Shown here piece by piece: positions 18,982 to 27,195 of a DNA stretch of 38,628 bases. The notes under the pieces are model-generated. The model was not told where the DNA came from. It was given only the letters and a program-made list of their open reading frames with translations, and did not search any database. This DNA comes from Alphaproteobacteria bacterium. GTDB lineage: Bacteria > Pseudomonadota > Alphaproteobacteria > RF32 > CAG-239. The first letter of the stretch is position 1; the number at the start of each line of letters is the position of its first letter. The DNA lies in contig JAFSUB010000010.1 of assembly GCA_017445475.1 (NCBI GenBank), forward strand, positions 1 to 38,628. Reading direction: 5' to 3'. The translations under genes and the position numbers were made by a program.

Positions 18982-21489
18982 TTAAATGGGTTTGCAGACG
19001 CCTTTCAGCCACAAACGCTCATCTTTTTTCAAATAAGGCGAAAGGCATTTGAAAACCTTATCATGATAGGCGTTCAGCCACGTTTTCTCTTTTGCGGTTA
19101 AAAGCGCGGCTTTAATCAGCTTCAAATCAATCGGGCAGAGCGTTAAAGGCTCAAAGATGAGTTTGCCCTCATGTGCGCTCGGCACAGTATAATAAAGGTT
19201 TTCAATTCTAACGCCGAAAGCTCCCTTGTTGTAAACACCCGGCTCAATAGATGTAACATAATTTTGCAAAACGGGCGTTTGGTTTGTTTTGTTGATGGCA
19301 AAAGGCGGTTCGTGCACATCTGAAAAATGGCCGACGCTGTGTCCGGTTCCGTGTGCGTAGTCCTGCCCGCTTTTTTTCAAAACATCGCGGCAGATTTTAT
19401 CAAGGCAGCATGCCGGTGTTTTTTTTTCAAATTCGGCACTTGCCAAAGCAATATGCGCCTTTAAAACACGAGTGAACGCGTGTTTCATTTCCTCTTTAAG
19501 AATGCCTAAAGCAAATGTGCGTGTTATGTCTGTTGTGCCGTCATAATATTGCGCGCCGCTGTCTACCAGCAAAAGCGCATTTTTGCTCATTTTTTTGTTT
19601 GTTTTTTTGCATGGCTTATAATGCACAATGGCGGCGTTTTGATTGACACCGGCAATTGTCTCAAAGCTTTTTGAAAAATAGTTTTTAACCTTTTTGCGCA
19701 ATGCATCAAGTTTTTTGGCCACATCAAGCTCGCTTGAATTTTTATAATTTTGTTCAAGCCAGCGGATAAAGCGCACCATGGCAACACCGTCTCTGATATG
19801 CGCGTTTTTAAATCCTTCAATTTCGGTTTTATTTTTTTGCAATTTCATGTTTTCAAGCGCTCGAAACCCCACATCTTCAAGGTTGTTCAAGCTTTGATGC
19901 AAAAAAAGCGGCGTCGTTTCAAAATTGGCAAGAACTTTGCCGCATTTTTTGAGCGCCCGCATCAGCAGATTGATTTGAAAAGTTTCATAAATTTTGAGGT
20001 TGCCGTTTTTTTTGAGCAATCCGAAAGCACGCCAAACAGGCGAACAAGGCAAGTCTTTTGCGCGTTTGTTCGCAAGCCACGAAAGCGCTTGCGGCGAACA
20101 AATCAGGAGCGCATCAAAGCCTTTCGGAAAACTTTTGGACAGCGCCGCGCATTTTTGTGTTGAGCTTATTCCCGCCCATTTCAAAGCGTGGTTAAAAACG
20201 CAGTTTGCGGGTATAAGAGTGCTCATCGGCACACTAAAATCGGCCTGAAGGTTAATGCCCTTTTGCTTGAGGCAAGACCAAAACTTTGCTGAAACGGTAA
20301 GAGGATGAAGCATAAGTTTTTTAAGTTTGCCTGCTGCATAAATGTGCGCAAGAGCTTCGATGGTGTTTGTGCACTCGACAACTTCAATGTTTTCAAAAAC
20401 TTCATATTTTGCCTGAAGGGTATATCTGCCGTCAACCAAAAGCCATGATTTTTGCTGGCCCACAACAAGTGTTCCGGCCGAACCCGAAAAACCCGAAAGC
20501 TCCGAAATTTTATTTTCGGGCTCTAACACGTCCTCGTCGAGAAACATATTGTTTTTCAAAACAAGAAAGGCCTCGTCGGCACGCAGCGTTGTTTGAAGAG
20601 ATTTAAGGCTTTGCCCTTTTTGTAAAAGCACAGCACGCCAATTTTCTTTTTCATACACCTTAAGGCACTTAAAGCCTTTCTTTTCAAAAGCCCCTAAAAC
20701 CCAGCCTTCCTGCTCATCGGTAAATCCAGACAAAACGACATAACCGTTTGAGGTGGTGTGCGAAGCAAAATCTTTTGCCATATCAATCAACGGCCGCGCT
20801 AAAATGTTGGCAACAATAAGCTGATAGGGCTTGTTTTCTTTAACGATTTTTGCCTTAAAACCATTGCTTTTGGCAACGTCAATTAAGCTTTCAAAGCCGT
20901 TTTCGAAAGCGTTTTGCTTTGCAACGCGCACCGATTCCGCATCAATATCGACGGCGGTGATGCGCGTGTTATTTTTTTTCCATTTTTGCGCGCATGCAAT
21001 TGATAAAATGCCCGAGCCTGTGCCGACATCTAAAATTTGATGCGGCGTAAACATCATTTTCGACAAATCCGAAATGGCATCAAGACACAGGCAGGTTGTT
21101 TGGTGTGTTGAGCCGAAAGCCGTTGCCGCATAAACTTTAATGGGAATTTTTTTTGTTTGCGGCACCTTTTCTTCGTGAAATCCGTATATGCAAAAATCAG
21201 ACGTTTCGAAAGGGTTAAATTGAACGGCGGTCAGTTTTAACCAATCTTTGTCTTCAAGGGTTTCAATTTTATATTTCGGCAGCTGAATATTTGCCGCGCG
21301 GGCGGCGTCTAAAAGATGAGCCTCGTCAAAGTTGCCCGCCACATAGCCGACATATTCTTCGCTCTCATCATCTTTATAATTTAAGGCAGACACTTCAAAA
21401 TAAGAATCTAAAAAGGCCAAGACATCTTCTCGGAGTTCTTTGAGCGGTTCAAAAACAACCATTTTTGTGCTTAAAATCATCTCTTGCAT
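18982..21489 (-). CDS. Fusion: PrmA methyltransferase + aminopeptidase P
   Basis: 835 aa with two complete enzymes in one frame. Residues 1 to about 288 are ribosomal protein L11 methyltransferase: VYAATAFGSTHQTT, the SAM loop LDVGTGSGILSIACA (152-166) and IVANILARPLIDMA. Residues about 290-835 are an M24B Xaa-Pro aminopeptidase. The creatinase-type N-terminal half starts at LRADEAFLVL. The pita-bread half shows all metal ligands: Asp/Asp in LLLVDSGAQYYDGTTDITRT, His in GTGHSVGHFSDVHEPP, Glu in TSIEPGVY and Glu in GVRIENLYYT. The two genes are neighbours in many alphaproteobacteria, so loss of one stop codon would fuse them. The junction is tight, with no linker. One polypeptide would methylate L11 and trim X-Pro N-termini, unless it is cleaved. 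Confidence 0.93.
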   Translation of the reverse strand: MQEMILSTKMVVFEPLKELREDVLAFLDSYFEVSALNYKDDESEEYVGYVAGNFDEAHLLDAARAANIQLPKYKIETLEDKDWLKLTAVQFNPFETSDFCIYGFHEEKVPQTKKIPIKVYAATAFGSTHQTTCLCLDAISDLSKMMFTPHQILDVGTGSGILSIACAQKWKKNNTRITAVDIDAESVRVAKQNAFENGFESLIDVAKSNGFKAKIVKENKPYQLIVANILARPLIDMAKDFASHTTSNGYVVLSGFTDEQEGWVLGAFEKKGFKCLKVYEKENWRAVLLQKGQSLKSLQTTLRADEAFLVLKNNMFLDEDVLEPENKISELSGFSGSAGTLVVGQQKSWLLVDGRYTLQAKYEVFENIEVVECTNTIEALAHIYAAGKLKKLMLHPLTVSAKFWSCLKQKGINLQADFSVPMSTLIPANCVFNHALKWAGISSTQKCAALSKSFPKGFDALLICSPQALSWLANKRAKDLPCSPVWRAFGLLKKNGNLKIYETFQINLLMRALKKCGKVLANFETTPLFLHQSLNNLEDVGFRALENMKLQKNKTEIEGFKNAHIRDGVAMVRFIRWLEQNYKNSSELDVAKKLDALRKKVKNYFSKSFETIAGVNQNAAIVHYKPCKKTNKKMSKNALLLVDSGAQYYDGTTDITRTFALGILKEEMKHAFTRVLKAHIALASAEFEKKTPACCLDKICRDVLKKSGQDYAHGTGHSVGHFSDVHEPPFAINKTNQTPVLQNYVTSIEPGVYNKGAFGVRIENLYYTVPSAHEGKLIFEPLTLCPIDLKLIKAALLTAKEKTWLNAYHDKVFKCLSPYLKKDERLWLKGVCKPI

Positions 21490-21580
21490 TTTTTTCTTTG
21501 TTTTGTTATCTTTTTGTTTACCAAATTGAATTTATAATCTATTTTAGATTATGTTTAAACCATTGCAAGAGAATATTCAA

Positions 21581-22342
21581 ATGAAAAAATTACTCACACT
21601 TTTTTGCGTTGCTTTGTTGGCCGCGTGCACATACAGCGAAAACAGTTTCAACTTCATTCCGAGCCGCAATAAACTCTTTATTATTTGGCAGACCGATCAA
21701 ATTTTTTATTATGATGAGGCCTTAAACGGGGAGTTTTTGTCTTCAAGCAAAGTTGTCAGTGAAAACAAAATTGAAAAAGGCAAGGTTTTAATTACGCAAA
21801 CGGACGCTGAAATGGTTTCAACGCACATGTATCGTGCGGATTATTACACCACCGAAAGCGTGAAACCGACACAAAACGGCGTGATGGATTCGGCCTATTC
21901 GCCCTTAAGGATTCGCAAAAACGGAACATATACGGCGTTTGGCGAAGTAACGCATGAGGGACAAACCTATATGTTGGTTCGTGTCGGCAAAACGAATGAT
22001 ATTCTGCTTGTCAAGGGCGACGGCAGCATATATGAACATATCGGCAGAATTGTTGATGGTCGCCTTGCCGTGTTGAGCGCAATGTTTTATCTTGAACCGG
22101 AAGATTTGAAGATGGTTCCGGTTGTGAGTACACGCGTTGAAAATTCAAAAGATAAAAGCGGTTTTTCCCTCACGTATGACGGTTTAGAAAATGACGGTAA
22201 TGACATTGTCTTTACGCTCAACGAAAACGGCACGTCCGAAAAATTGAGATTTTCCGTTTGCGATGAAAGGATAAGAATCCGTGATATGGATATTGATATT
22301 TTTGATGTTTCCGAAAAGAAAATCGAATATATGATTAGATAG
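21581..22342 (+). CDS. Unknown lipoprotein
   Basis: 253 aa from the ATG at 21581, chosen because it begins a normal lipoprotein signal MKKLLTLFCVALLAAC with lipidated Cys near residue 16; an in-frame ATG at 21551 would bury the signal. The mature part is mostly beta, with VSENKIEKGKVLITQTDAEMV, RIRKNGTYTAFGEVTHEGQTY and a C-terminal FTLNENGTSEKLRFSVCDE. I do not recognise the family. It is divergent from the prmA fusion and ends at a terminator. Confidence 0.82.
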   Translation: MKKLLTLFCVALLAACTYSENSFNFIPSRNKLFIIWQTDQIFYYDEALNGEFLSSSKVVSENKIEKGKVLITQTDAEMVSTHMYRADYYTTESVKPTQNGVMDSAYSPLRIRKNGTYTAFGEVTHEGQTYMLVRVGKTNDILLVKGDGSIYEHIGRIVDGRLAVLSAMFYLEPEDLKMVPVVSTRVENSKDKSGFSLTYDGLENDGNDIVFTLNENGTSEKLRFSVCDERIRIRDMDIDIFDVSEKKIEYMIR

Positions 22343-26745: not shown

Positions 26746-27195
26746 TTATTTTTCACTGCCTTGCAGAAAAGATAAAATTTCCTGCGCCCTATAACCTGAA
26801 ATTTCTTTCGTTTCCGGTTTTGTATAAGGTTTTTTCATTTTACGAACCGATTGACTCATACTTTTAAAATGCCCCATCATTTCTTCTCGTTTTTCTTGCG
26901 CATCGTTCTGAGAAAGCACAGATTGTCTTAATTCTTTAAGATCTGATATATATTCTTCGGCCGCTTTCGGATGCCAAAGACGAAATTCATCACCATTGAT
27001 TGAAATGATATTGTCATCAGCCAAACTTTTCATAACACTCTCTGTTAAAACACTTTTTCCGGCACCCGGCTGTCCGCCTAAAATATAAACCTGAGGGTGT
27101 GCAACAGGTGTTTTGTCTTGAAATACAAAGTCCCTAATTTCGGCTAAAACTTGATTATGTTCTTCATCAGATAATTTATAATCATCAAAAGGCAT
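26746..27195 (-). CDS. Short zeta-toxin-like P-loop protein
   Basis: 149 aa. Residues 34-48 (PQVYILGGQPGAGKS) are a Walker A loop of the zeta/PezT type with K47. INGDEFRLWHPKA (residues 66-78) matches the catalytic Asp segment GDEFR. Zeta toxins phosphorylate UDP-N-acetylglucosamine and are normally about 250-290 aa. Here the second half, with the key arginines and sugar pocket, is missing and is replaced by a Lys/Glu-rich helical tail. It may be a truncated or inactive toxin, or a short variant. It starts 4 bp after the 93-aa gene, forming a two-gene operon. Confidence 0.82.
   Translation of the reverse strand: MPFDDYKLSDEEHNQVLAEIRDFVFQDKTPVAHPQVYILGGQPGAGKSVLTESVMKSLADDNIISINGDEFRLWHPKAAEEYISDLKELRQSVLSQNDAQEKREEMMGHFKSMSQSVRKMKKPYTKPETKEISGYRAQEILSFLQGSEK

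Follow-up and report, generated by a model that had tools for sequence, protein, structure and literature searches.

The window, that is, the whole 38,628-nucleotide stretch of DNA analyzed here, carries on its minus strand a fused prmA-app gene at positions 18982–21489 (stop codon included), an 835-codon frame that is open from its ATG to its stop. For comparison, the longest stop-to-stop frame in 100 shuffles of the window was 237 aa. The gene is present in one copy in the window genome, a 1.33 Mb draft that is 99.6% complete. A Pfam search of the fused protein placed PrmA at residues 47–291 (1.9e-47), Creatinase_N_2 at 427–500, Peptidase_M24 at 559–767 (1e-43) and Peptidase_M24_C at 777–835, all above their gathering scores. 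The initial annotation had described one 835-codon frame encoding a full L11 methyltransferase and a full M24B aminopeptidase with all five metal ligands, and the open frame, the Pfam domains and an alignment to C. elegans APP-1 bear this out, with the two halves at about residues 1–291 and 295–835.

Downstream of the fused gene, on the same strand, lies rplQ (L17; PF01196; 18269–18892, minus), which is also found downstream of the fusion in G003, G005, G006 and G007. The L17 protein of the window has a long Ala/Lys/Glu-rich C-terminal tail and matches the NCBIfam 'sunset domain variant' below the cut-off. On the other side, a divergently oriented, unnamed lipoprotein-like ORF of 263 aa (21551–22342, plus) has no Pfam or NCBIfam match; its place next to the fusion is conserved in all eight genomes that have the fused gene, and in G020 it adjoins the split pair. 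Elsewhere in the window, positions 26746–27195 encode a short P-loop protein of 149 aa, which has a zeta-toxin-like match.

The two halves and their join

The PrmA half (residues 1–291; 20617–21489, minus) was delimited by the PF06325 match, by alignment to 1ufk/3grz and by its last strand. It passes the PF06325 gathering score (162.6 vs 22 bits) and misses the NCBIfam prmA equivalog cut-offs (165.4 vs 244 and 123.2 vs 183 bits). We take these low NCBIfam scores as divergence of the PrmA half, and because the cut-offs are missed, we claim a PrmA homologue whose substrate would presumably be L11. The half contains the motifs DVGTGSG (154–160) and NILA (228–231) as well as H129, which aligns with T. 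thermophilus H104 as counted on the alignment to 1ufk/3grz. D154, G156–G160, N228–A231 and H129 are invariant in the six full-length fused proteins, and V155 varies. The Pfam alignment to PrmA starts only at residue 47; the structure model predicts a folded beta-alpha domain at residues 8–65, a possible counterpart of the N-terminal L11-recognition domain. In the fused proteins, as in nearly all split family relatives, the SAM loop AFGTGxH lacks one residue (AFGSxH), and the full-length loop is retained in the family row L018 and in the order- and class-level rows. Judging from these alignments, the short loop is a trait of the family, unconnected to the fusion.

The aminopeptidase P half (residues 295–835; 18982–20607, minus, stop included) comprises Creatinase_N, Creatinase_N_2, M24 and M24_C, the last three scoring 47.3, 150 and 80.3 bits against gathering scores of 29.7, 23 and 28.9 bits, respectively. 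Its M24 catalytic domain (PF00557; 19189–19815, minus) contains D643, D654, H717, E749 and E763, which we take to be the metal ligands of M24; they align with C. elegans APP-1 (4s2r) and are invariant in the six full-length fused proteins. Aminopeptidase P works on Xaa-Pro N-termini. The domains, ligands and fold point to an M24B aminopeptidase P of the cytosolic type, which would cleave Xaa-Pro peptides.

An AlphaFold2 model of the fused protein, made from a 70-row alignment, has a mean pLDDT of 94.9 and a pTM of 0.87 and comes without an inter-domain error estimate. The top Foldseek matches of the model are human, Plasmodium and C. elegans aminopeptidase P (human APP1 3ctz, E 1.6e-50, TMt 0.77), and T. 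thermophilus PrmA appears from rank 36 with a TMt of up to 0.78. In the model, the last PrmA strand occupies residues 284–291 and the first peptidase helix residues 295–299, so that the join is a short loop. The halves are therefore joined directly, as the initial annotation had stated, with about three residues between them, and the join lies at about residues 292–294 (20608–20616, minus) rather than at residue 288. This site of the lost prmA stop and the lost downstream ATG was placed from the codons of the eight fused genes, the split relatives and the model. We also scanned the window gene for start codons in a region that begins 60 codons ahead of an NNMF motif in the peptidase half and ends 80 codons beyond it. 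The methionine of this motif is the sole in-frame ATG and no Shine-Dalgarno-like match precedes it, in agreement with the earlier remark that the join has no ribosome binding site.

The fused frame across one genus

The search for the same fusion in related genomes found it in seven others of the genus, so that, with the window included, 8 of the 11 genomes of the genus have a match to the fusion protein and all eight are open in one frame across the join. Two of these genes (G001 and G004) are truncated by contig ends past the join, leaving six full-length copies, whose alignment has 835 columns. The five other full-length copies are 52–59% identical to the window protein, and the two cut copies are 47–61% identical to it over the pieces that match. 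Because the copies have diverged to 47–61% identity, we consider the fusion old and maintained.

A sequencing or assembly artefact, in which a missed stop or a frame error merges two separate genes, might be suspected in a 27-contig draft, the more so as nothing but a stop or a slight shift of frame keeps the genes of the split relatives apart. However, the frame is open at this site in eight genomes of the genus, the other seven fused proteins are as little as 47% and at most 61% identical to that of the window, and the codons at the former ATG position differ among the fused genes. It is not credible that identical errors arose independently, and we give an artefact practically no chance; the concern that a stop was lost or the frame was wrong at the junction is contradicted by the seven other genomes. 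A 'TAA' in G003 sits directly ahead of its ATG.

A profile search of contigs retrieved 79 loci from named genomes, 7 of them fused and the others either split pairs or loci with the peptidase alone; a single-sequence search of the same contigs gave none. The seven fused loci (RUG14252, UBA9814, Reindeer_2_mag_112, RGIG10106 from yak rumen, UBA1254, RUG11221 and RUG803) are apparently the same genomes as those of the genus set. Among the matches listed, the fusion is confined to a single genus of gut bacteria recorded from ruminants, and a prmA-app fusion was not reported in the literature searched.

Another reading keeps the fused frame and obtains two separate enzymes from it, either by cleavage of the product or by additional synthesis of the peptidase from an internal start. 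In G004 and G005, an in-frame TTG just ahead of the join, 25 codons before the NNMF motif, is preceded by GGAGG, and some internal initiation is possible there; some other fused genes have an ATG near the join that the rest do not share, and the join is a short loop in the model. Nevertheless, the eight fused genes have no start codon with a Shine-Dalgarno at a commonly shared place. The only start-type codon near the join that is common to all eight is that of the NNMF methionine, which has no Shine-Dalgarno match before it and lies about 20 residues inside the peptidase fold, and the model contains no long exposed linker. Separate enzymes are thus unlikely. The intact motifs and the fold suggest that the product is a single uncleaved polypeptide with both activities.

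In three members of the genus (G002, G008 and G009), a full PrmA and an aminopeptidase P are both missing, and the only M24 protein in each is a shorter one. Since G008 and G009 also have no rplQ match, a missing contig is the likely cause in these two genomes, which are uninformative on loss. The absence looks real in G002 (99% complete), which is also without the divergent neighbour, because its rplQ is present, in a rearranged neighbourhood next to an alpha/beta hydrolase. Both enzymes are absent from this nearly complete genome, and therefore the fusion is dispensable. In a UvrA tree, G002 and G008 are nested within the fused clade.

The UvrA tree contains 25 genomes; G009 and G010 gave no match to UvrA, and G025, whose UvrA is split into two pieces, was left out. 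The genus is monophyletic in it (100/100) and joins with the genera g5 and g6, also at 100/100. G019:C13 and G030:C3 each carry a further UvrA-like gene, with 38% identity to the window UvrA. ValS was dropped as a marker, as its matches in G001, G002 and G014 reach only about 30%. The best match of the window valyl-tRNA synthetase is about 30% in these three genomes and 42% in G027, compared with 72–91% in most other family genomes searched; the low matches suggest replacement by a distant ValS or its absence.

At a UvrA identity of 84–88%, fused pairs average 57.1% identity in PrmA and 55.4% in the peptidase, and split pairs 60.5% and 51.8%, respectively; at like UvrA distance, the divergence of the fused protein is within the split-pair range. 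When all pairs are averaged, the PrmA/UvrA divergence ratio is 3.59 in fused vs 2.52 in split pairs, and because of this higher ratio the PrmA half of the fused protein may be mildly relaxed.

Split pairs in relatives and the origin of the fusion

The family search gave matches in 146 of 152 genomes. Among the family matches listed, none outside the genus is fused, and each match spanning both halves holds at least one stop; in each of the 24 family loci spanning both halves that we examined outside the genus, the stop lies between the genes. A stop separates prmA and the peptidase gene in all 44 split pairs examined outside the genus. An ATGA four-base overlap is found in 10 of the 44, among them all four that were examined in g5 and g6, the nearest genera, and a stop and an ATG abut in one frame in 8, the remainder being spaced or in other frames; 22 of the 44 pairs were chosen for spanning in one frame, so these proportions are no survey. 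Four-base overlaps are described in PMC10666635 as a typical setting of termination-reinitiation coupling.

The adjacency of the two genes in other alphaproteobacteria, which the initial annotation had pointed out, was confirmed in 12 of 23 class-level genomes, where they are adjacent on the same strand. Eight of the others have both genes apart or on different contigs, and three are without a clear match to one or both. We also searched 385 genomes of the class with PF06325. Among the rows listed, nine long PrmA frames, four of more than 700 aa (G383, G465, G217 and G246) and five of 484–660 aa, contain no peptidase in the PrmA frame, and two of the nine that were run against Pfam have PrmA and other methyltransferase models only.

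Taking the open frames, the tree and the split relatives together, we conclude with a probability of roughly 0.87 that this is a genuine genus-wide prmA-app fusion, which most simply arose once in the ancestor of the genus, with loss of the internal ATG and likely little or no advantage. The ancestral state would have been conserved adjacent, probably translationally coupled genes for PrmA and a cytosolic-type aminopeptidase P. The prmA stop would then have left the frame, through either a small indel within an ATGA overlap or the loss of an in-frame stop. The indel is the likelier of these two routes, because all four g5 and g6 genomes examined have the ATGA overlap. Afterwards, the internal ATG would have drifted away, and the fused genes now have other codons at its former position. 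From then on, most or all of the peptidase would be produced as the C-terminal half of the 835-residue protein, and fixed 1:1 production would have replaced reinitiation-coupled production, likely with little or no selective advantage.

Predicted activities and relation to known systems

In the fused protein, the N-terminal half would trimethylate L11 before ribosome assembly and the C-terminal half would remove N-terminal residues from Xaa-Pro peptides, the two working independently in a fixed ratio on one chain. Two independent enzymes so arranged would be the simplest account of the intact motifs and the model. As stated in PMC3347575, E. coli PrmA trimethylates free L11 at Ala1, Lys3 and Lys39, and its loss gives no noticeable phenotype, its cellular role being still unclear.

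L11 starts with Met-Ala-Lys-Ser-Lys in the fused genomes in which it was found and in the split relatives examined, with Thr for Ser in G167. None of the 16 L11 proteins found in the 18 genomes searched (G004 and G135 gave no L11 match) has an Xaa-Pro N-terminus. The Ala after Met, the nearby lysines and the EFCK lysine, presumably the counterpart of Lys39, are all kept in the L11 of the genus. A working link between the PrmA and peptidase activities was considered and found to be unsupported, as L11 of the genus is without an Xaa-Pro N-terminus.

Such a link would have the peptidase half prepare or follow the modification of L11 or other ribosomal proteins, or be brought to unassembled ones. 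It would fit the old adjacency (12 of 23 class-level genomes) and the persistence of the fusion within the genus. On the other hand, L11 starts with Met-Ala-Lys and therefore offers no expected aminopeptidase P site, and its N-terminal stretch is altered neither by the fusion nor by the loss of both enzymes in G002, which makes functional coupling very improbable. It would be a long shot that the L11-binding domain of PrmA delivers the peptidase to ribosomal proteins that are nascent or not yet assembled, and that the adjacency reflects a joint role of L11 methylation and Xaa-Pro trimming in translation quality control.

The fusion is best read as lineage-specific and probably near-neutral or stoichiometry-keeping, a real but modest evolutionary curiosity that is functionally ordinary. 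Its interest is that of a clean natural case of a coupled overlapping gene pair becoming one gene: sister genera hold overlapping, abutting in-frame and spaced split forms, and the fused form is limited to a single clade. In addition, the fusion hints, so far only weakly, at a possible link between the two enzymes in alphaproteobacteria.

The N-terminal half resembles PrmA (PF06325; T. thermophilus 1ufk/2nxc/3cjt) in its fold, its DVGTGSG and NILA motifs and the histidine aligned with H104, the base proposed in PMC3347575. It differs in carrying a C-terminal peptidase, in an AFGTGxH loop that is one residue short and in scoring below the NCBIfam cut-offs. The C-terminal half shares Creatinase_N_2, M24, M24_C and the five ligands with cytosolic aminopeptidase P (human XPNPEP1, 3ctz; C. 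elegans APP-1, 4s2r) but is without its own start codon and is attached to the C-terminus of PrmA. Bifunctional PrmC/TrmB (NCBIfam NF002421), compared by description only, likewise combines a protein methyltransferase with a second enzyme in one polypeptide, whereas the enzymes are others. Finally, the ATGA overlap in 10 of the 44 split pairs is like that of the coupled overlapping pairs in PMC10666635, while the pair in this genus is now one frame.
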